64,000 nucleotides of DNA, taken from Streptomyces xiamenensis. Its GTDB lineage: Bacteria > Actinomycetota > Actinomycetes > Streptomycetales > Streptomycetaceae. Numbering within the stretch: position 1 is the stretch's first letter; each line of letters opens with the position of its first letter. The DNA lies in contig NZ_CP009922.3 of assembly GCF_000993785.3 (NCBI RefSeq), forward strand, positions 744,001 through 808,000, read 5' to 3'. Shown piece by piece: positions 36,267 through 51,267 of this stretch. Both the position numbers and the translations under genes were made by a program. The notes under the pieces were generated by a model. That model was not told where the DNA came from and made no database searches. It worked only from the letters and a program-made list of their open reading frames with translations.

Positions 36267-37259
36267 ATGAAGATGCTGATGAACGTCCCGGAACGGGTGG
36301 TCTCCGACGCACTGCACGGAATGGCCCTGGCCCACCCGGAGTTGGTCGTCGACGTCGACAACCGGGTGATCGTGCGGCGGGACGCCCCGGTGGCCGGCAA
36401 GGTGGGCCTGGTCTCCGGCGGCGGATCGGGTCACGAGCCGCTGCACGGCGGCTTCGTCGGCCCCGGCATGCTGGACGCCGCCTGTGCCGGGGAGGTCTTC
36501 ACCTCTCCCGTTCCCGATCAGATGGTACGAGCGGCCGCCGCCGTCGACAGCGGTTCCGGTGTGCTGCTGATCGTCAAGAACTACACGGGCGACGTCCTCA
36601 ACTTCGACATGGCGGCCGAACTGGCCGAGGACGAGGGCGTACAGATCGCCAAGGTCCTCGTCCAGGACGATGTGGCCGTCACCGACAGCACCTACACGGC
36701 CGGCCGGCGCGGCACCGGCGGCACCCTGTTCGTGGAGAAGCTGGCCGGCGCCGCCGCCGAGGAGGGCGCGGACCTGGACCGGGTGGCGGCGATCGCCCGC
36801 CAGGTCTCCGACTCCTCCCGCAGCTTCGGGGTCGCGCTCAGCGCCTGCTCCACTCCCGCCAAGGGCGGCCCCACCTTCGATCTGCCGGCGGGCGAACTGG
36901 AACTGGGCATCGGCATCCACGGCGAGCCGGGCCGCGAGCGGCGCGCCATGATGACCTCGGGTGAGATCGCGGATGTCGCGGTGGACGCGCTGCTGGAGGA
37001 TCTGCGCCCGGACGGTCCGGTGCTGGCGCTGGTCAACGGCATGGGCGGGACGCCGCTGCTGGAGCTGTACGGCTTCAACGCCGAGGTGCAGCGGGTTCTG
37101 ACGGCCCGCGGGATCCCGGTGGCGCGTACCCTCGTCGGCAATTACGTCACCTCGCTCGACATGGCGGGCGCTTCGGTGACGCTGTGCCAGGTGGACGAGG
37201 AGCTGCTGCGGCTGTGGGACGCGCCGGTGAGCACGCCGGGGCTGCGCTGGGGCCGTTGA
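36267..37259 (+). CDS. dhaK: Dihydroxyacetone kinase subunit DhaK
   Basis: 330 residues. DhaK binds dihydroxyacetone covalently through a His and passes it to the phosphorylating DhaL. Family motifs are SGGGSGHEPLHGGFVG (about residues 50-65), KNYTGDVLNFDMA (about 105-117) and LGIGIHGEPGRER, which carries the substrate-binding His near residue 214. It is the first gene of dhaK-dhaL-dhaM, with dhaL 23 bases downstream. The protein stays in the cytosol and feeds dihydroxyacetone phosphate to glycolysis. Length matches the bacterial PTS-dependent type. Confidence 0.96.
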   Translation: MKMLMNVPERVVSDALHGMALAHPELVVDVDNRVIVRRDAPVAGKVGLVSGGGSGHEPLHGGFVGPGMLDAACAGEVFTSPVPDQMVRAAAAVDSGSGVLLIVKNYTGDVLNFDMAAELAEDEGVQIAKVLVQDDVAVTDSTYTAGRRGTGGTLFVEKLAGAAAEEGADLDRVAAIARQVSDSSRSFGVALSACSTPAKGGPTFDLPAGELELGIGIHGEPGRERRAMMTSGEIADVAVDALLEDLRPDGPVLALVNGMGGTPLLELYGFNAEVQRVLTARGIPVARTLVGNYVTSLDMAGASVTLCQVDEELLRLWDAPVSTPGLRWGR

Positions 37260-37282
37260 GCCAGGGGAGTGTGAGGACGAGG

Positions 37283-37891
37283 ATGGACGCGGAATTCTTC
37301 CGTCGCTGGCTCACCGCGACGACACGGGCCGTGGAGGAGGAGGCCGACCGGCTCACGGAGCTGGACGCGGCCATCGGCGACGCCGATCACGGCGCCAATA
37401 TGCGGCGCGGCTTCCGGGCGGTGTCCGAGGCGCTGGCTGCTCAGGAGCCCGATGTGGTGCTCACACCCGGCGCGGTGCTGATGCTGGCCGGGCGGACGCT
37501 GATCTCCAAGGTCGGCGGGGCGTCGGGGCCGCTGTACGGGACGCTGCTGCGGCGTACCGGCAAGGCGCTGGGCGACGCGCCCGAGGTGTCGGACGCCGAA
37601 CTGCGGGCCGCGCTCGACGAGGGCGTGCGGGCGGTCGGGACGCTGGGCAAGTCCGAGGCGGGTGACAAGACGATGCTGGACGCGCTGATCCCGGGGGTCC
37701 GGGCGCTGGCCGAGTCCTATCCGGCGGCGCGGGACGCGGCCGCGCGCGGGGCGGAGGCCACCATCCCGATGCGGGCGCGGCGCGGCCGGGCCAGCTATCT
37801 GGGTGAGCGCAGCATCGGGCACCAGGATCCGGGGGCGACGTCCTCGGCGCTGCTGTTCGCGACCCTGGCGGAGGTGGCCGGCGATGTCTGA
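37283..37891 (+). CDS. dhaL: Dihydroxyacetone kinase subunit DhaL
   Basis: 202 residues from the ATG at 37283. DhaL carries a tightly bound ADP that is rephosphorylated by DhaM. The Mg-binding Asp cluster is in LDAAIGDADHGANMRRGF (residues 29-46), and KVGGASGPLYGTLL and SIGHQDPGA are the other conserved segments. Its stop overlaps the dhaM start by 8 bases (ATGTCTGA), showing tight translational coupling. Confidence 0.96.
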   Translation: MDAEFFRRWLTATTRAVEEEADRLTELDAAIGDADHGANMRRGFRAVSEALAAQEPDVVLTPGAVLMLAGRTLISKVGGASGPLYGTLLRRTGKALGDAPEVSDAELRAALDEGVRAVGTLGKSEAGDKTMLDALIPGVRALAESYPAARDAAARGAEATIPMRARRGRASYLGERSIGHQDPGATSSALLFATLAEVAGDV

Positions 37892-38297
37892 GGAGGAGGC
37901 GCTGGTCGGGGTCGTGCTGGTCTCGCACAGCAAGGAGGTCGCGGAGTCGGTGGTACGGCTGGCGGCCGGGCTGGCCGGCGGCGGGCGGCTGACGCTGCTG
38001 GCGGCGGCCGGCGGTGACGCGGACGGCGGTCTGGGAACCAACGCGGAGCTGATCACCGAGGCGGTGCGCCGGGTGGACCGGGGCGCGGGGGTGGCGGTGC
38101 TGGCGGACCTGGGCAGCGCGGTGCTCACCGTGCAGGCGCTGCTGGCCGAGGGCGACGAGCTGCCGCCGCGTACCCGGCTGGTGGACGCCCCGTTCGTGGA
38201 GGGCGCGGTGGCGGCGGTGGTCACGGCCTCGGCGGGGGCGGACCTCCAGGCGGTGGCGGACGCCGCCGGGGACGCCTACACCTTCCGCAAGATCTGA
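37884..38297 (+). CDS. dhaM: PTS-type phosphotransfer subunit DhaM
   Basis: 137 residues forming only the EIIA-mannose-like domain. The phosphorylated His is in VLVSHSKEVAESV near residue 15, and ADLGSAVLTVQALL is a family motif. It accepts phosphate from EI and HPr and regenerates the DhaL cofactor. HPr or EI domains, fused to DhaM in E. coli, are absent here, so separate PTS proteins must supply phosphate; they are not encoded in the window. Confidence 0.93.
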   Translation: MSEEEALVGVVLVSHSKEVAESVVRLAAGLAGGGRLTLLAAAGGDADGGLGTNAELITEAVRRVDRGAGVAVLADLGSAVLTVQALLAEGDELPPRTRLVDAPFVEGAVAAVVTASAGADLQAVADAAGDAYTFRKI

Positions 38298-42430: not shown

Positions 42431-43834
42431 TCAGATTTCGACGTCCTCCAGAATGCCGAGGGCGTCGGGCACCAGGACGGCCGCCGAGTAGTAGGCACTG
42501 ACGAGGTAGGAGATCACCGCCTTGTCGTTGATGCCCATGAAGCGGACGTTCAGACTGGGTTCGTATTCATCGGGAATTCCCGTCTGATGCAGCCCGACGA
42601 CACCCTGGTTCTCCTGACCGGTACGCAGGGCGAGGACGGAGCTGGTGCCGGCTGCGGTCACCGGGATCTTGTCGCAGGGCAGCAGCGGGATGCCGCGCCA
42701 CGAGCGCAGCCGTACGCCGTCGATCTCGGTGTCCTGCGGATAGATCCCCCGGGCGCTGCACTGGCGCCCGAAGGCGGCGATGGTGCGCGGGTGGGCCAGC
42801 AGGTACTGGGTCTTGCGGCGCCGTGAGATGAGTTCGTCGAGGTCCTCGGGGGTGGGCGGCCCGGTGCGGGTGTGGATGCGCTGCCGCAGATCGGCGTTGT
42901 GCAGCAGGCCGAACTCGCGGTTGTTGACCAGCTCGTGCTCCTGGCGTTCGCGCAACGCCTCGATGGTCAGCCGCAGCTGCTCCTCGACCTGGTCCATGGG
43001 TTCGCTGTAGAGGTCGGCGACCCGGGTGTGGACGCGCAGCACGGTCTGGGCGACGCTCAGCTCGTACTCGCGCGGGTGCAGGTCGTACTCGGCGAAGGTG
43101 CCGGGCAGTGCGGGCTCGCCGGTGTGTCCGGCGGCCAGCGCGATGTCGGCCTCGCCGCGCTTGTTGCGCGCGGGGGCGCTGCGGGCGGCGGCGGCCACCT
43201 CTTCCAGATGGGTGCGGAGCGCGGGCGCCACGTCGGCGACCGCGCGGACCCGGGCGAGCGGCAGGGCCAGGACGGTGGAGCGGGTGACGGCCTTGAGGGT
43301 GTGCGGCCAGGTACCGGGTTCGGGGGCGGCCAGGGCGTCGTCACCGGTGAAGTCGCCGTCGGCGAGGGTGCCGAGCTCCGCGGCCTCGTCGTAGGCGGCG
43401 GGGCCGAGCTTCCTGATCTTGCCGTGGGCGATCAGCAGGATCTCCTCGACCGGCCGGCCGAGGGCGGCGATGACGTCGCCCGGCCCGTACTCGCGCTGTT
43501 CGCAGTGGCCGGCGAGGGTGGTGAGCAGTTCGTGGTCGGTGATGCCGTGCAGCGCGGGCAGTTCGGTGAGCTGGGCCGGGATGACCCGGACCTGCGCGCC
43601 GGAGCTGACGAATTCCACCCGGCCGTTCCCGACTGTGTGGGTGAGCCGCCGGTTGACGCGGAAGGTGCCGGCCGAGACCTGCACCCAGGGCAGGATTTTC
43701 AGCAGCCACCGCGAGGAGATTCCCTGCATCTGCGGGGGCGTCTTGGTGGTGCTGGCGAGATTCCGCGCGGCAGCGGTGTCGAGGCTGGAGGCGGCGGGCG
43801 GTACGGAGGCCGCCGGATCGAGGGAAGTCGTCAT
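42431..43834 (-). CDS. Family 2B encapsulin shell protein, second copy (EshA-like)
   Basis: 467 residues, downstream member of the pair, starting 2 bases after the first copy stops. The HK97-type shell fold is interrupted by a cyclic-nucleotide-binding-like domain at about 93-212, the defining feature of family 2B. Conserved blocks are [22 protein letters not shown] (32-53), [43 protein letters not shown] and the C-terminal [28 protein letters not shown]. The binding cassette [11 protein letters not shown] lacks the canonical Glu and Arg. Such shells assemble into 60-subunit compartments; two-copy systems make mixed shells. Confidence 0.93.
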
Positions 43835-43836
43835 GG

Positions 43837-45261
43837 TCAGTGCCCGATCTCCACGTCCTCGAGAATGCCGAGCGCGTCCGGCACCAGAACGGCCACCGAG
43901 TAATAGGCGCTCACCAAATAGGAGATGACGGCCTTCTCATTGATACCCATGAAGCGCACGGAAAGGCTGGGCTGGTATTCGTCGGGGATTCCGGTGCGGT
44001 GGAGTCCGACGACGCCCTGGGCCTTCTCGCCGGTGCGCAGGGCGAGGATCGAGGTGGTGCCGCGGTCGGTGACCGGGATCTTGTCGCAGGGCAGGACGGG
44101 GACGCCGCGCCAGGCCGGGACGGCGTGGCCGTCGAGGTCGGCGTTGGCGGGGTAGAGGCCGCGGCGGCTGAGTTCCCGGCCGAAGGCGGCGATGGCCTTG
44201 GGGTGGGCCAGGATGACGCTGGGCTCCTTCCAGACGGAGGCCAGGAGTTCGTCGAGGTCGTCGGGGGTGGGCGGGCCGGAGCGGGTGTGGATGCGCTGCC
44301 GCAGGTCGGCGTTGTGCAGCAGGCCGAACTCGCGGTTGTTGACCAGCTCGTGCTCCTGGCGTTCGCGCAACGCCTCGATGGTCAGCCGCAGCTGCTCCTC
44401 GACCTGGTTCATCGGCTCGTTGTACAGGTCGGCGACCCGGGTGTGGACGCGCAGCACGGTCTGGGCGACGCTCAGCTCGTACTCGCGGGGGCTGAGGTCG
44501 TAGTCGGCGAAGGTGCCGGGGAGGTCGGGTTCCCCGGCGTGCCCGGAGGCGAGTTCGATGGCGGATTCGCCGTGGGCGTTGTGGGACCGGGCGGAGGCGT
44601 CCCGGTCGCCGGCCCGGGCCAGGTGGGCGCTCAGCGTCTCGGATCGCTCGCGCACCCGGTCGAAGGCGGCCCGGCTCAAGGTGAGGACGGTGCCGCTGGT
44701 CAGGGCCGTCAGTCCGTGTTCGAGGCGGCCGGTCTCGGCGTCGGCGCCGGTGAGGGCGGCGTCCCCGTAGAAGTCGCCGTCCGCGAGTACCCGGAACTCG
44801 GTCTCGGCGTCGTAGAGTCCGGCGCCGCGTTCGCTGAGCTTGCCGTGGGCGATCAGGACCACCGTGTCGGCGGGCGCGCCGGCTTCGAGGATCGTCTCGC
44901 CGGGAGTGAAGTCCCGCTGCACGCAGGAGGCGGCGAGTTCCGCGAGGACCTCCTCGTCGGTGAATCCGGACAGGGCCGGGAGTTCGGCGAGTTCCGCGGG
45001 GATGACCCGCACTTCGGCGCCGGTGGACACGAATTCGATCCGGCCGTTTCCGAGAGTGTGGCTAAGGCGCCGGTTCACCCGGAACGTACCGCCGGAAACC
45101 TGCACCCAGGGCAGGACTTTGAGCAGCCACCGGGAGGTGATGCCCTGCATCTGCGGGGGCGTTTTGGTGGTGGTGGCGAGATTGCGGGCGGCCGCGGTGG
45201 CCAGGCTCAACTGGGCGTGGGAAGGGTTGCCGCCGGAGGACGGTTCCGTCGAAGTCGTCAT
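43837..45261 (-). CDS. Family 2B encapsulin shell protein, first copy (EshA-like)
   Basis: 474 residues from the ATG at 45261, the same MTTS opening as its paralogue. No ribosome site precedes it. A TTGCCG-N18-TACCGT promoter ends 8 bases upstream, so translation is probably leaderless. The CNB insertion lies at about 95-215; its cassette reads GDFYGDAAL (162-170) with Asp for Glu and no Arg at the phosphate site, so canonical cAMP binding is doubtful. The HK97 parts match the second copy closely. Homologues in other Streptomyces sit with terpene cyclase or 2-methylisoborneol synthase cargo genes; none is found here. Confidence 0.93.
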
Positions 45262-45269
45262 GGTGCGAG

Positions 45270-45299
45270 ACGGTAGGAGGAAGGAAAGACACCCGGCAA
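45270..45299 (-). promoter_or_regulatory. Promoter of the encapsulin operon
   Basis: Minus strand: TTGCCG (45299-45294), an 18-base spacer and TACCGT (45275-45270), then 8 bases to the ATG at 45261. Start of transcription is predicted at or next to the start codon. Confidence 0.5.
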
Positions 45300-45325
45300 T
45301 CACTCAAAAGAGAAGGCCATTTGAG

Positions 45326-45351
45326 GATTCTCGTAAAATCATCAGGGGTAT
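45326..45351 (+). promoter_or_regulatory. Possible SigB-type promoter facing the beta-helix/AAA+ gene
   Basis: GATT (45326-45329), 16 bases, GGGTAT (45346-45351) on the + strand fits GNNT-N14-16-GGGTA(C/T). It would give a leader of about 200 bases. Low confidence because the consensus is loose. Confidence 0.28.
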
Positions 45352-45557
45352 CCGAGCGCCTTTTCTCCCCGCGCCACCACGGAGCGTCCCCAAGTCCCCA
45401 CCATCGGTGACTCTTTGGGGCGAGCACGAGCGGATGTGCGAGATAGTGTTTGCGCAGGCCGCTGCGGTCATCCCATCAGCCCGCAGCACGCTACGGTGGG
45501 TTCTCGTACGCGTGTCAGCGCGCTCCGTCATCGCATCAGGTTGGGGCACACAAGTCC

Positions 45558-47966
45558 ATGGCAGAAGGCTCGGTCCAGGTCACGCACACCGGAACTTCCC
45601 GCTGGCGGCGCCGGACCGCCGTCTATGGCACCGTCACCGAAGCCCTGGCCGCCGCCGCGGACGGTGACATCCTCGTGCTGGGCCCCGGCACCTACCGCGA
45701 GAACCTGGTGATCGAGCAGTCCGTCACCGTACGCGGCCCCGAGGAGAAAGAGGGCTCGGCCCGGATCGCGCCCGCCGACGGCGTACCGCTGACCGTACGC
45801 GGCTCCGCCATCGTGCAGCGCCTGCGCATCGAGGGCCAGGACATCGCGGCCCCCGCCGTCCTCATCGAGAACAGCACGCCGGAGCTGGCCGAACTGCTCG
45901 TCCGCACCTCCTCCGCCTCCGGCATAGAGGTGCGCGGCGGCGCACGGCCCACCGTGCGCCGCTGCGCGGTCAGCAACGCCACCGGCACCGGGATCAGCGT
46001 CCTGGACAGTGCCGGCGGCCTGTTCGAGGAGTGCGAGATCACCGAGTCGGGACAGACCGGCATCTCGGTGCGCGGCCCGGCCCACCTGCGGCTCGAACGC
46101 TGCCGGGTGCGGCGCGGCCAGGGCGCCGGGCTCGCCGTGGTGGGCGCGGACAGCGCGGTGGACGCGGTGGACTGCGACATCCACGACATCAAGGGGGCCG
46201 GGGTGCGGCTGGCCGAGCGCGCCACCGCCCACCTGACCGACTGCCGGGTGAGCGCCACCACCGGGGACGGCGTCACGCTGGAGTCGGAGGCCGTCCTGAC
46301 CCTGACCGACTCCGAGATCCACGACATCCCGGAGAACGCGCTGGACCTGCGGTCGCGTTCGGTACTGACCCTGGTGCGCTCCACCGTGCGGCGGTTCGGC
46401 CGCAACGGGGTGTCGGTGTGGGACCCGGGCACCCACGTGGACGCCCACCACACCCGCATCCACGAGTCGACCGGTGACTACCCGGCGGTGTGGGTCAGCG
46501 ACGGCGCGACGACCGTACTGGAGTCCTGCACCGTCGACCATGTGCCCGACGCGCTGTTCGTCCTGGACGCGGGTTCGCGCGCCGATGTGGTGGACAGCGA
46601 GATCGAGCACGTGCGCGGCTCGGCGATCTCGGTGAGCGACGGTGCCACCGCCCGGGTGGACGCGACCCGGATGCACCGGGTGGGCACCGGCGCCTGGTTC
46701 CGCGACCGGGGCAGCGGGGGGACGGTCACCGGCTGCACCATCGACCAGGCCACCACGGGCGTCATCGTCAGCAAGGACGCCGACCCCGCCGTCGAGGACT
46801 GTGTGATCACCGCGCCCGCCGAGGCCGGTTTCTACGTCTCGGCGCGCGGCAAGGGCACCTTCACCCGGTGCCGGGTGACGGGCTCACGCGGCTACGGCTT
46901 CCACATCATCGACGGTTGCCGCAGCGAGCTCATCCGCTGCCGCACGGAGCGGTGCGCGCGCGGCGGCTACGTGTTCTCCGAGAAGAGCCCGGTGCTGACG
47001 GACTGCCACAGCGACGAGGCGGTCGCGCCGGGCGAGAGCGTCACGCCCGAGCCGGTGGCCCCGCCGGTGACGCAGGTCAAGGCCACCGCGAAGGCGAAGC
47101 AGCCGCCGGCCGCCGCGGACCCGGCGACCGCCGCGCCCGCCGAGGAGCCCGCCGCGAGCCGCCCCTCGGACGAAGTACTGGCCGAACTGGAGTCCCTGGT
47201 CGGCCTGGACAGCGTCAAGCAGGAGGTCAAGGCGCTCATCGACATGATCGAGGTGGGCCGGCGCCGCCAGGCCGCCGGTCTCAAGGCCGCCTCGGTCCGC
47301 CGCCACCTGGTGTTCACCGGCTCCCCCGGTACCGGCAAGACCACGGTGGCCCGGCTGTACGGCGAGATCCTGCACTCCCTCGGGGTGCTGGAGCGCGGCC
47401 ACCTCGTGGAGGTCTCCCGGGTCGATCTGGTGGGCGAGCACATCGGCTCCACCGCGATCCGCACCCAGGAGGCGTTCGACCGCTCGCGCGGCGGGGTGCT
47501 GTTCATCGACGAGGCGTACGCCCTGTCCCCCGAGGACGCCGGGCGCGACTTCGGCAAGGAGGCGATCGACACCCTGGTGAAGCTGATGGAGGACCACCGC
47601 GAGGCGGTCGTCGTCATCGTCGCCGGCTACACGGCGGAGATGGAGCGCTTCCTGGCCGTCAACCCCGGGGTCGCCTCCCGCTTCTCGCGCACCATCACCT
47701 TCGGCGACTACAACGCGGAGGAACTGCTGAGCATCGTCCGCCAGCAGGCCGGCGACCAGGAGTACGCGCTGGGCGAAGGCGCCGAGGAGGCGCTGCTGAA
47801 GCACTTCACCGACCTCCCCAAGGGGCCCACCTTCGGGAACGGCCGCACCGCGCGCCAGACCTTCGAGGCGATGGTCGAACGGCACGCCGGCCGGGTCGCC
47901 CAGCTCTCCGACCCCAGCACCGAGGATCTGACGCTGCTGTACCCGGAGGACCTGCCGGGCCACTGA
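45558..47966 (+). CDS. Right-handed beta-helix protein fused to CbbX/EccA-type AAA+ ATPase
   Basis: 802 residues. Residues about 15-480 form roughly twenty parallel beta-helix coils (units such as ENSTPELAELLVRTSSASGIEVRGG and VRGPAHLRLERCRVRRGQGAG). A Pro/Ala/Lys linker (about 485-535) leads to an AAA+ module of the CbbX/SpoVK/EccA family: LESLVGLDSVKQEVKALI, Walker A GSPGTGKTT (about 589), Walker B GVLFIDEAYAL (about 648) and sensor and Arg-finger segments (SRFSRTITF). Such ATPases thread or remodel proteins; the beta-helix is an unusual scaffold partner. It is divergent from the encapsulin operon over 296 bases. Confidence 0.92.
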   Translation: MAEGSVQVTHTGTSRWRRRTAVYGTVTEALAAAADGDILVLGPGTYRENLVIEQSVTVRGPEEKEGSARIAPADGVPLTVRGSAIVQRLRIEGQDIAAPAVLIENSTPELAELLVRTSSASGIEVRGGARPTVRRCAVSNATGTGISVLDSAGGLFEECEITESGQTGISVRGPAHLRLERCRVRRGQGAGLAVVGADSAVDAVDCDIHDIKGAGVRLAERATAHLTDCRVSATTGDGVTLESEAVLTLTDSEIHDIPENALDLRSRSVLTLVRSTVRRFGRNGVSVWDPGTHVDAHHTRIHESTGDYPAVWVSDGATTVLESCTVDHVPDALFVLDAGSRADVVDSEIEHVRGSAISVSDGATARVDATRMHRVGTGAWFRDRGSGGTVTGCTIDQATTGVIVSKDADPAVEDCVITAPAEAGFYVSARGKGTFTRCRVTGSRGYGFHIIDGCRSELIRCRTERCARGGYVFSEKSPVLTDCHSDEAVAPGESVTPEPVAPPVTQVKATAKAKQPPAAADPATAAPAEEPAASRPSDEVLAELESLVGLDSVKQEVKALIDMIEVGRRRQAAGLKAASVRRHLVFTGSPGTGKTTVARLYGEILHSLGVLERGHLVEVSRVDLVGEHIGSTAIRTQEAFDRSRGGVLFIDEAYALSPEDAGRDFGKEAIDTLVKLMEDHREAVVVIVAGYTAEMERFLAVNPGVASRFSRTITFGDYNAEELLSIVRQQAGDQEYALGEGAEEALLKHFTDLPKGPTFGNGRTARQTFEAMVERHAGRVAQLSDPSTEDLTLLYPEDLPGH

Positions 47967-48017: not shown

Positions 48018-50294
48018 TCACGGCGCCTTCTCCGCGGCCCCCTCCCCCGGCTGCTGGTGCGGCAGCGCCACACCCGCCCCGCCGCCCGCCAGCCGCTCGA
48101 AGAGATCCGCCCGCGCCCGTCCGAAGGCCGGGTCCGCCGCGTAGTCGGCGTGCCCCAGGATCGGCTCGGGCAGCGGGCGGCGCAGATTGCGCCCGTAGTA
48201 CAGGGGGTCGGGCAGCGGTCCCACATCCACCGGCTCCTGCCCCACCGGGCCGCCGATCGGATCGGTCTCGCGCCACAGATTGCTCCAGCACGGCAGCTCC
48301 GCGCGCAGCGCGTCCAGCCGGCGGGCCCCGAAGTACGCGGGGAACCACCGGCTGTACAGCCGTTCCAGCGGGGAGCCGTACGTCAGCAGCGCCACCCGGC
48401 TGCGGGTGGCCGGATCCAGCTGCCACACGGCCGCCGCCGCCAGCACGCTGCCCTGCGAGTGACCGGAGATGATCACCCGGCCGCCGGTCGAGTCGATCCA
48501 GGTGCCCATCCGCCACGACAGATCGGGCACCGCCCGCTCCGCGTAGCACGGCGGCGCGAACGGGTGGGCCGCGCGCGGCCAGAAGGTGCCGACGTCCCAC
48601 AGGATGCCGATGGTGCGCCGCGCCGCCGCGTCCCGGTACGCGCGCCGGCCCACCGCCAGCAGCGCCACCACCATGAACCCGGCCAGCCACGACCCCAGCG
48701 TCTGCGAGAACTCCGCGAACCCCCGCACCGGCGCGGGGGCGTCCGCCGCCGCCACCGCCGGCGGCTCGCCGGTCAGCGTTCCGGCCACCACCGCGATCCC
48801 GAGCACCACCGAGGCCGCCGTCAGCACCCCTATCAGCTTCGGCGCCGCGTCGGTGAGGCGGGCCCGGGCGACGGCGGAGGCGATGGCGCGGCTGCGGTCC
48901 TGGTCCGGCGGGCAGTTCTCCCGGGCGTAGCGGTGCACGATCCCCGGTTCCAGCGCGGCGCGACGCCGCGCCACCGTCCGCAGCGCCACCACCAGCAGCA
49001 CCAGCAGCACCACCAGCAGCGCGGGAATGGCGCTGGACTGCCAGCTCAGCTGCACCGGCGGACCCGCGATCACCGCCTCCGGGCCGCCGGTGGCGGCCGA
49101 CTCCGGTTCCAGCCAGGCGCCCAGCCACTGCACCACCGCGCCGGTGAGCATGCCGCCCAGCGCGCAGGCGATCATCGCCACCGAGGCCCCGCCGATCCCC
49201 AGCAGCGCGCCCCGGTCGGTGCTCGGCGCGTGCCGGTGCAGATGGAAGGCGGTCAGCGCCAGGCCGAGCACCAGCACCCCCTGGACGATGGCGAGCACCG
49301 GATAGAAGGCGTCGCCCGCCGGGAGCGCGCCCTCGGCGGTCCACTGCGGCCGGCTCCAGCCGGTGTGCACCAGCGTCACCGCCAGCAGCGCCAGCGAGGC
49401 CCACGGCAAGGCGCTGACCACCGCGGGCGCCCCCGACTCGTCCGGTTCCTCCTCGCTGCGGCCGTGCCCCGCCTCCATGGCCGCCACCGCCACCCAGCCG
49501 CTCGCGGTCAGTACGGTCAGCGCCCACCACCACACCGTGCGCTCAAAGGTTCCCGTCGCGGTCAGCAGGACCGCGGTGATGGTCAGCAGCCCGACCGCGG
49601 TGTGCGCGGCCCGCAGCCGGCTGACCAGGGTGCGCCCGTACCAGAAGCCGGGCAGACTCAGCAGCGGCCGCTCGGGGCCGTCCGCCAGGGTGCGCACCGG
49701 CGGTGAGGCCGACTCGTACGCGCTCCAGGTGCGGTGCGAGAGCCACCACAGCAGCGCGGTCAGGGCCAGCGGCAGCACGGTGGCCAGCGCCAGGCGGCGC
49801 CCGGGCTGAGCCCACCAGCCGCCGTCGGGGCCCCAGAAGGCCAGCCAGGAGACGTCGGCGGTGCAGGCCGCCGAGGCGCCGCACTGCCAGGCGAGCAGGT
49901 CGAGCGCCGCCGAGCAGGCCCCGGCGACCAGCAGCACGGTGAGGGAGAGGGCGAGCAGGCGTACCAGCAGGTCATACAGCCGCTGGGTGCGGCGGGTGCC
50001 GCGGACGTCGGGCCGCATCCAGTGCGCGAGGTTGACGACCATGAAGGGGAGTAACAGCAGCCACAGGGCGCGGGCGCCGTTGCCCGAGGTCAGGTTGGAC
50101 CAGGAGTACGCCTCGCGCAGCGGAGTGCCGTCGTCCCAGGGCCGGTCGGCCGCGTCGTCGGTACGCCGGTGGACGGAGGCCGTGTTGTCGCCGGTGATGC
50201 GGGTGGTACGGGGGTCCTCGAGCATCTTCTGCGGCGTGGTTCCGCCGACCCCGTGTACCAGCAGCTCCACCCCGGGTTCCGGTGAGGTGCTCAT
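48018..50294 (-). CDS. Multi-pass membrane protein with C-terminal serine-hydrolase domain
   Basis: 758 residues; the ATG at 50294 is preferred, and the longer frame above it enters the promoter of the DeoR gene. The N-terminus reads VELLVHGVGGTTPQKMLEDP, like a hydrolase oxyanion strand, although the nucleophile comes much later. About ten hydrophobic segments follow between residues 75 and 540, for example LWLLLLPFMVVNL, LTVLLVAGACSAAL and IPALLVVLLVLLVVAL. A GHSQGSVLAAAAVWQL nucleophile elbow lies near 613, with TYGSPLERLYSRWFPAYFG after it. The arrangement suggests an alpha/beta hydrolase whose chain is interrupted by a membrane domain. The substrate is unknown, perhaps a lipid. Confidence 0.82.
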   Translation of the reverse strand: MSTSPEPGVELLVHGVGGTTPQKMLEDPRTTRITGDNTASVHRRTDDAADRPWDDGTPLREAYSWSNLTSGNGARALWLLLLPFMVVNLAHWMRPDVRGTRRTQRLYDLLVRLLALSLTVLLVAGACSAALDLLAWQCGASAACTADVSWLAFWGPDGGWWAQPGRRLALATVLPLALTALLWWLSHRTWSAYESASPPVRTLADGPERPLLSLPGFWYGRTLVSRLRAAHTAVGLLTITAVLLTATGTFERTVWWWALTVLTASGWVAVAAMEAGHGRSEEEPDESGAPAVVSALPWASLALLAVTLVHTGWSRPQWTAEGALPAGDAFYPVLAIVQGVLVLGLALTAFHLHRHAPSTDRGALLGIGGASVAMIACALGGMLTGAVVQWLGAWLEPESAATGGPEAVIAGPPVQLSWQSSAIPALLVVLLVLLVVALRTVARRRAALEPGIVHRYARENCPPDQDRSRAIASAVARARLTDAAPKLIGVLTAASVVLGIAVVAGTLTGEPPAVAAADAPAPVRGFAEFSQTLGSWLAGFMVVALLAVGRRAYRDAAARRTIGILWDVGTFWPRAAHPFAPPCYAERAVPDLSWRMGTWIDSTGGRVIISGHSQGSVLAAAAVWQLDPATRSRVALLTYGSPLERLYSRWFPAYFGARRLDALRAELPCWSNLWRETDPIGGPVGQEPVDVGPLPDPLYYGRNLRRPLPEPILGHADYAADPAFGRARADLFERLAGGGAGVALPHQQPGEGAAEKAP

Positions 50295-50427
50295 GACTAG
50301 AGGCTTCTCCGCGTCAGTGGTGGTTCGAACATGCGAAGATGACTCCTTCATCAGCCAATGGGGCGAACGCCGGTCAAGCGCTCCCCGCGCACGCGCGGAC
50401 GTCCCCCGGCACCCCGGAGAGGATCCC

Positions 50428-51267
50428 GTGGCCGACAACCAGAACCTGCTGGCGGGGCAGCGACGCGCCCTGATCCTGGAGGAGGTTCGCCGCCGAGGTG
50501 GAATCCGGGTCAGCGAGTTGACGCGGATGCTCCAGGTCTCGGACATGACGGTCCGGCGGGACCTGGACGTACTCGCCCGGCAGGGCACCTTGGAGAAGGT
50601 GCACGGCGGCGCGGTGCCGGTCGATCAGGCGCGTACCCATGAGCCGGGCTTCGAGGCGAAGTCGGAGCTGGAGCTGACCGCCAAGAGCGACATCGCCCGC
50701 GCGGCGGCTGCCCTGGTCGTGCCCGGCACCGCGGTGGCGCTCGCGGGCGGCACCACCACCTTCGCCGTCGCCCAGCAGCTGGTGGACATCCCGGACCTCA
50801 CCGTGGTCACCAACTCGGTGCGGGTCGCGGACGTCTTCCACGCGGCACGCCGCCCGGCGGAGGGGCGCGGCGCGGAGAGCGGAGCGGCCACGGTGGTGCT
50901 GACCGGCGGAGTGCGCACGCCCTCCGAGACATTGGTCGGCCCCGTGGCGGACGCGGCGATCAGCTCGCTCCACTTCGATGTGCTCTTCCTCGGCACGCAC
51001 GGCATCTCGGTGGAGGCCGGGTGCTCGACGCCCAACCTCGCCGAGGCGGAGACCAACCGGCACTTCATCCGCTCGGCGCGCCGGGTGGTGGTGGTCGCGG
51101 ATCACACCAAGTGGGGCACCACGGGGCTGAGTTCGTTCGCCTCACTGGACGAGGTGGACACCCTGGTGATGGACGCCGGGCTCGCGGCGGCCGACCGGGA
51201 GGAGATCGCGGAGCAGTTCGCCGAGCTGATCATCGCGGGCCCGGACACCGGCGGCAACGGCGGCTGA
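50428..51267 (+). CDS. DeoR/GlpR-family transcriptional regulator
   Basis: 279 residues from the GTG at 50428 with GGAGAGG upstream. The N-terminal helix-turn-helix is GGIRVSELTRMLQVSDMTVRRDLDVLARQGTLEKVHGGAV (residues 24-63). The sugar-phosphate-isomerase-like sensor domain includes VALAGGTTTFAVAQQL, VVTNSVRVADVF and LFLGTHGISVEAG, with the DHTKWG segment typical of sugar phosphate binding. It is divergent from the membrane hydrolase gene. DeoR proteins usually repress sugar catabolic genes, but no such operon is adjacent, so the target is unclear. Confidence 0.93.
   Translation: MADNQNLLAGQRRALILEEVRRRGGIRVSELTRMLQVSDMTVRRDLDVLARQGTLEKVHGGAVPVDQARTHEPGFEAKSELELTAKSDIARAAAALVVPGTAVALAGGTTTFAVAQQLVDIPDLTVVTNSVRVADVFHAARRPAEGRGAESGAATVVLTGGVRTPSETLVGPVADAAISSLHFDVLFLGTHGISVEAGCSTPNLAEAETNRHFIRSARRVVVVADHTKWGTTGLSSFASLDEVDTLVMDAGLAAADREEIAEQFAELIIAGPDTGGNGG

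Follow-up and report, generated by a model that had tools for sequence, protein, structure and literature searches.

A stretch of 64,000 nucleotides from the genome of the soil bacterium Streptomyces xiamenensis, referred to here as the window, holds two adjacent genes for Family 2B encapsulin shell proteins, which we call Enc1 and Enc2. The best explanation for the role of this pair, to which we assign a probability of roughly 0.6, is that Enc1 and Enc2 would form a mixed shell loaded in trans with the geosmin synthase of the same genome, a two-domain terpene cyclase that produces the earthy-smelling compound geosmin and is encoded far from the window. The identity of the shell proteins, the two-component signature of the pair, the presence of a putative address tag in the geosmin synthase and the conservation of that tag are established by sequence, and the disorder of the tail in which the tag is located is predicted.

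Two-component shell operon

The first reading of this DNA, made from the sequence alone (hereafter the sequence-only reading), described a two-shell Family 2B pair on the minus strand, and profile searches bear this out. Both proteins, 474 and 467 residues long and both starting with MTTS, match shell models of NCBIfam and Pfam and carry an inserted cyclic-nucleotide-binding-like (cNMP) domain, and only 2 nt separate their open reading frames (ORFs). Their scores for the NCBIfam model encap_f2b (NF041163; Table 1) exceed its cut-off of 400 bits, the Pfam SrpI-like model gives E-values of 3.9e-139 for Enc1 and 5.4e-137 for Enc2, and the cNMP_binding model about 1e-8 in both. The two proteins are 67% identical to each other (317/472), and each matches over its full length a solved shell chain of Streptomyces lydicus, Enc1 that of 9bje and Enc2 that of 9bix, which are Sl-Enc1 and Sl-Enc2, respectively, by the data statement of Dutcher et al. 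2025 (PMC12407261). The diagnostic motif 1 of each protein is present, and the motif 2 regions show a pattern similar, but not identical, to the S. lydicus motifs. As judged from these models and motifs, Enc1 and Enc2 are Family 2B encapsulin shell proteins, and the pair, with two 2B shell genes less than 10 kb apart and the Enc1/Enc2 motif 1, is a two-component Family 2B operon. In the whole genome these are the only matches above the Family 2B cut-off, two further matches lying below it at 46.7 and 25.5 bits. The window's pair being the only Family 2B system of the genome, it would be the sole destination of the tag, should the latter serve for docking to Family 2B shells.

Cargo candidates in the window and in the genome

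The claim that no cargo gene lies nearby also stood, since neither terpene cyclase, polyprenyl synthase, FGGY kinase nor class-V aminotransferase was found by Pfam among 35 scanned window proteins, a set that leaves about 15 of the 50 heuristically predicted ORFs outside the scan; where the claim extends to methyltransferases, it was checked by these scans alone. The sequence-only reading had left the choice between a new cargo and a distant locus. The distant locus is now favoured, with the geosmin synthase as a specific candidate, and the new cargo has become the less favoured option. The genome-wide search for terpene cyclases proposed at that time yields three, at 1.26, 4.51 and 5.53 Mb (the window spans 0.744-0.808 Mb), and the one at 5.53 Mb, the geosmin synthase, has a tagged C-terminal tail predicted to be disordered.

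This tail contains GPLGLGTSAARL, and the C-terminal end of the protein is VGPLGLGTSAARLFAGG. In an AlphaFold2 model of the protein (27 locus sequences), the mean predicted local distance difference test score (pLDDT) is 86.5 and falls below 50 in two segments, at residues 331-355 in the linker and 718-748 in the tail, with the tag at 728-735. The motif GPTGLGT(SAAR) was proposed as a possible targeting sequence in terpene cyclase-loaded Family 2B systems (Andreas and Giessen 2021, PMC8346489), and the own geosmin synthase carries a motif of this type, located, according to the model, in a region predicted to be disordered. A DNA pattern for the 7-residue tag core occurs once in the genome, inside the geosmin synthase gene.

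Other candidates were rejected or weakened. The tail of the cyclase at 1.26 Mb, GPTAGSTSRAAR, resembles the tag but is common only to S. harbinensis among 7 homologues, and in the cyclase at 4.51 Mb the tag was not seen. A single DNA match for GPTGLGT (GPTGFGT in L104) is in a frame opposite a longer plausible frame and was taken as noise. Xylulokinase was dismissed as cargo of the window's shells for not being nearby: the single XylB match above cut-off is at 0.18 Mb and weaker ones are at 0.12, 0.55, 1.51 and 5.31 Mb, with the shells at 0.79 Mb. No xylulokinase being found near the pair, the operon does not belong to the xylulokinase (XK) type.

Related shell loci

A contig scan of genomes gave 469 relatives of Enc1, of which the best 80 loci were used, with flanks of up to 10 kb per locus, some contigs being shorter; cysteine desulfurase was not among the flank queries. 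The window's neighbour gene, coding for a right-handed beta-helix and an AAA ATPase, is present in 42 of the 80 loci, all without a cargo match. Xylulokinase accompanies 10 loci, at about 1.5-6.5 kb from the shells, while 12 have a cyclase with 55-74% identity to the own geosmin synthase, a prenyltransferase match is present in 5 (in one of them together with a weak cyclase match), and 11 have none of AAA, xylulokinase, cyclase or prenyltransferase. In the comparison of neighbourhoods suggested in the sequence-only reading, neither terpene cyclase, prenyltransferase nor xylulokinase was found in the available flanks of the 42 syntenic relatives. Two shell stretches are present in 72/80 loci and one in 8/80, three of these eight (L022, L024, L025) ending at a contig edge.

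A FastTree phylogeny was built from 172 shell sequences, the 42 AAA-type loci being represented by 20. The clade of Enc1 (local support 99) and that of Enc2 (96) comprise 23 rows each, namely the window itself, 21 AAA-type rows and L040, a locus with a cut flank. Shells of XK and other cargo-free Streptomyces loci are placed near these clades, and the cyclase-linked shells of Nonomuraea, Saccharopolyspora and others further out, many of the deeper forks being weakly supported. Another gene family is found within 3.5 kb upstream of the shells in 9/10 XK loci and in 7/10 other cargo-free loci.

Among the cyclases encoded beside shells in the 80 loci, 12/13 have a tag of the GLGT or GLGM type close to the C-terminus, some having it also in the linker. 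The regular expression P.G[LI]GT[SA]A gave 15 matches in 11 of the 1150 genes predicted in these loci (470,150 residues), and all 11 genes code for geosmin-synthase-like cyclases beside shells.

Two of the loci, L059 and L063 (10001-11356 in each), hold a single shell, followed directly downstream by a geosmin synthase that shares 74% identity with the own one, and each of the two genomes has a second, unlinked geosmin synthase. The L059 shell combines an Enc2-like motif 1 (ISRRRK) with an Enc1-like motif 2 region (GHQVPAW).

Conservation and distribution of the tag

The search for geosmin synthase covered the genomes behind 50 of the 80 loci, the remaining 30 being mostly short contigs, non-Streptomyces or near-duplicates, and 49/50 have a match over both domains. 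The 52 copies read from them, without the second copy of G023, which has an internal stop, were combined with 44 genus-group genomes from a class-wide draw, and after removal of five duplicates the set comprised 91 copies. With a broad expression, the tag is present in 51/53 copies from two-shell genomes vs 15/38 others; the two misses are GPRGIGTMAAR and GPTGPGTSAAR, and a slightly looser expression recovers 53/53 two-shell Streptomyces copies. In these 53 copies the tag columns hold 3.2-4.3 bits (2.1 at the variable x column), and columns more than 3 residues away about 1-2 bits. Expressed as consensus, the tag reaches 92%, the cyclase core 79%, the linker 50%, and the segments before and after the tag 56% and 29%.

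The class-wide sample comprised 393 genomes, in which geosmin synthase was called at E <=1e-100 and Family 2B model matches at E <=1e-60. Geosmin synthase was present in 94/393 and a Family 2B match in 119/393 genomes (112 above the family cut-off), and all 94 geosmin synthase genomes have a Family 2B match vs 25/299 of the others. Matches below 1e-200 occur in 90/94 geosmin synthase genomes (the other four are G067, G134, G201 and G318) and in 10 of the 25 matching genomes without geosmin synthase; the weaker matches may belong to Family 2A.

The distance from the start of a geosmin synthase to a listed shell is at most 10 kb in 32/50 genomes outside the Streptomyces genus group and in 1/44 inside it, so that by listed places it is unlinked in 43/44 genus-group genomes, in a count in which four genomes have no listed shell place and separate contigs were taken as unlinked. 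With a loose expression, the tag was found in 33/33 shell-linked copies, in 49/50 genomes outside the genus group and, inside the group, in 10/10 two-shell genomes vs 11/34 genomes without the pair. Furthermore, the tandem pair is the sole Family 2B match at 1e-60 in the own genome and in five window-type genomes (G126, G263, G312, G336, G392), and the geosmin synthases of all six are tagged.

Twenty untagged genus-group genomes form one supported clade (Table 1) with a tail like KAEYLSRRxHGFLPDRPPA. For 14 genomes of this clade, 19 shell loci were inspected; none showed a tandem shell pair, and a prenyltransferase match accompanies 14 of the 19. Such a clade, in which the tag has been lost, represents a natural control for the loading hypothesis.

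Proposed loading in trans and its alternatives

According to the mechanism proposed here, Enc1 and Enc2 would most likely assemble jointly, giving a mixed shell of about 28 nm, by analogy with S. lydicus, in which Enc2 forms shells of ~28 nm and Enc1 does so only together with Enc2 (PMC12407261). The cargo would be the geosmin synthase encoded in trans, whose disordered C-terminal tail with P-x-GLGTSAAR would attach to the shell from within. Pores near the cNMP-like domains could then admit farnesyl diphosphate, while germacradienol would be retained and turned over inside the shell, and geosmin would leave it. In a relative, the insertion domain was reported not to bind cyclic nucleotides (PMC12407261).

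Several observations weigh against loading with geosmin synthase. The cyclase gene is not linked to the shell genes in this genome, the distance being 4.74 Mb, the window-type genome G014 (locus L025) shows no full geosmin synthase, and no tag is seen in the divergent cyclase beside the shells of L083, which has 30% identity to the own geosmin synthase. With a strict expression the counts drop to 46/53 two-shell copies vs 12/38 others in the 91-copy set, and to 19/33 among the shell-linked copies. Of the 34 Streptomyces-group genomes lacking the pair, 11 keep the tag, and in three of these 11 (G085, G364 and G385) the sole shell found is linked to a prenyltransferase; the tag may serve prenyltransferase-linked shells too, or linger. 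The raw association of tag and two-shell systems (Fisher test, 1e-9) is not phylogenetically independent, because the tree of geosmin synthases requires about five changes for the tag and about five for the pair, and a sign test on the 3 to 5 independent pairs, which are too few, gave no signal (p ~1). The sample contains no genome with geosmin synthase and without a Family 2 match that could act as a negative control. Finally, a reversed control of the DNA pattern occurs twice in the own genome, and for this reason the uniqueness of the core there is not significant alone; what counts is the place of the match.

Alternatively, the shell may be real but filled with a different protein from a distant locus, for instance a prenyl diphosphate synthase or a cysteine desulfurase that has no recognisable tag, the tag of the geosmin synthase being kept for an unrelated reason. 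The putative cargo types established for Family 2B include prenyltransferases and cysteine desulfurases (PMC8346489), the own genome has eight polyprenyl synthase matches, the nearest about 86 kb from the shells, and tagged geosmin synthases occur in some genomes whose one shell is prenyltransferase-linked. However, the eight polyprenyl synthases were rejected or weakened as candidates, as none of them shows by eye the N-terminal extension of 50-100 residues reported for cargo of this type (in the synthase at 2.76 Mb, the N-terminus has a low-complexity stretch of about 28 residues), and no prenyltransferase accompanies the shells in the available flanks of the 42 syntenic loci, in which no search for cysteine desulfurase was made. 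Such a scenario seems rather unlikely to us. That the shell is empty, or itself fulfils a structural, developmental or storage function, reportedly as in EshA, with the tag as an ancestral remnant of linked systems, we regard as decidedly improbable. In its favour, the pair resides in three unlike Streptomyces neighbourhoods with no common cargo gene within reach, and the tag of the 11 genomes mentioned above can outlive the pair or do without it; yet a remnant in a disordered tail would be expected to drift, while the tag exceeds in consensus both the catalytic core and its own flanks.

The remaining alternative, in which a conserved neighbour of the shells is their cargo or partner, is highly improbable. 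The beta-helix/AAA ATPase gene found in 42/80 loci lies upstream of the shells and within 3.5 kb of them in 40/42, and relatives of the dihydroxyacetone kinase genes (dhaKLM-like) are present in 14/80 loci. On the other hand, the AAA gene travels with a syntenic block, the next gene of which is also present in 40/42 loci, it was not seen in the available flanks of XK, other cargo-free, cyclase-linked or prenyltransferase-linked loci, and the tag expression has no match in the AAA or dihydroxyacetone kinase neighbours of the 80 loci. The beta-helix/AAA gene marks the window's clade of loci and is probably not cargo.

Loading with geosmin synthase may extend beyond the window's clade. A tagged geosmin synthase is encoded elsewhere in all 7 XK genomes searched (L060, L064, L066, L068, L075, L081, L082; eight copies), and no native cargo of XK systems is known according to PMC12407261. 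The same reasoning questions xylulokinase as the cargo of XK shells. In its widest form, for which we see slightly less than even odds, all Streptomyces two-shell encapsulins, whether of the beta-helix/AAA clade, of the other clade without cargo or of the XK type, to which the solved S. lydicus shell is assigned, could be geosmin compartments, with the geosmin synthase encoded elsewhere and recruited by its C-terminal P-x-GLGTSAAR tag, and with xylulokinase as a bystander.

Relation to known systems

The Enc1/Enc2 operon is of an already-known kind, because two-component operons without obvious cargo have been reported, and the novelty lies in the cargo candidate. The window fits the 'Other' two-component Family 2B operons of PMC12407261, which have two shells and no obvious cargo nearby. 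For these, no cargo is proposed in the available text of that paper, whereas here a candidate encoded elsewhere is named. The sequence-only reading made no mention of such operons or of the Enc1/Enc2 signatures of the solved shell. The S. lydicus pair Sl-Enc1/Sl-Enc2 (PDB 9BJE, 9BIX; PMC12407261) is like that of the window in gene order, in motif 1 (VWK, RRRK) and in having no cargo directly beside it. It is, however, filed as XK type, whereas the window's pair has no xylulokinase nearby, and the beta-helix/AAA neighbourhood differs from that of the XK loci examined. Co-assembly of both proteins was shown in S. lydicus (PMC12407261).

Geosmin synthase has been found together with cNMP-domain shell genes in the geoA-cnb-cnb operons of cyanobacteria and Deltaproteobacteria (PMC7251104), the cyanobacterial shell proteins having 471 and 469 residues, and geosmin clusters of Myxococcota contain encapsulins (PMC12224551). 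In both the genes are linked, unlike in the window's genome. The survey of PMC8346489 sought cargo within 20 ORFs of a shell gene, a range beyond which the geosmin synthase lies here. The new part is a named, unlinked cargo candidate with an address tag for a cargo-free two-component shell. In an incomplete literature search, mainly at the level of titles and abstracts, no report was recognised in which a two-shell encapsulin is loaded in trans with a geosmin synthase. A 2024 paper reportedly deals with compartmentalised synthesis of 2-methylisoborneol.

Such a candidate makes the question of cargo in cargo-free and XK two-component encapsulins testable. If the proposed loading is true, searches limited to the neighbourhood of shell genes miss encapsulin cargo encoded in trans, and some Streptomyces make geosmin inside a protein compartment.

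Other features of the window

The coordinates of the features are collected in Table 1. In the divergent intergenic region upstream of Enc1, a simple scan showed no sigma-70-like site.

Table 1. Features of the window, with the distant cargo candidate and the untagged clade of geosmin synthases
Feature	Position	Strand	Basis or remark
Source genome G000	window = G000:C1:744001-808000		5.96 Mb, one contig
Enc1, Family 2B encapsulin shell protein, 474 residues, upstream gene of the pair	43837..45261	-	NCBIfam NF041163, 750.9 bits; nearest solved chain 9bje (Sl-Enc1), 671.1 bits
Enc2, Family 2B encapsulin shell protein, 467 residues, downstream gene of the pair	42431..43834	-	NCBIfam NF041163, 740 bits; nearest solved chain 9bix (Sl-Enc2), 670.3 bits
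cNMP-binding-like domain inserted in Enc1, residues 116-206	44644..44916	-	Pfam PF00027
cNMP-binding-like domain inserted in Enc2, residues 114-199	43238..43495	-	Pfam PF00027
Enc1 diagnostic motif 1, SVWK (TVWK in Sl-Enc1)	44227..44238	-	sequence; motif described in PMC12407261
Enc2 diagnostic motif 1, RRRK (as in Sl-Enc2)	42812..42823	-	sequence; motif described in PMC12407261
Divergent intergenic region upstream of Enc1, 296 nt	45262..45557
Divergent neighbour, right-handed beta-helix and SpoVK/CbbX-like AAA ATPase	45558..47966	+	Pfam, NCBIfam; present in 42/80 related loci
ORF of 856 residues, no Pfam match at 0.001	48018-50588	-	relative in 40/80 loci
dhaKLM-type dihydroxyacetone kinase genes (Dak1, Dak2, EIIA-man)	36267-38297	+	relatives in 14/80 loci
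Own geosmin synthase, two-domain terpene cyclase	G000:C1:5529642-5531966	-	4.74 Mb from the shells
Untagged clade of geosmin synthases			L168, L169, L171, L174, L176, L178-L180, L183, L185-L188, L191, L195, L197, L198, L201, L202, L211

The Rfam family RF02735 (Sernc350, 'Saccharopolyspora sRNA 350', antisense) has a match on the strand opposite the 5' part of each shell gene, at 44710-45220 (+) with 74 bits and at 43293-43787 (+) with 66.8 bits, the gathering score being 50. An antisense RNA of a 2B shell gene was perhaps the basis on which the family was defined.

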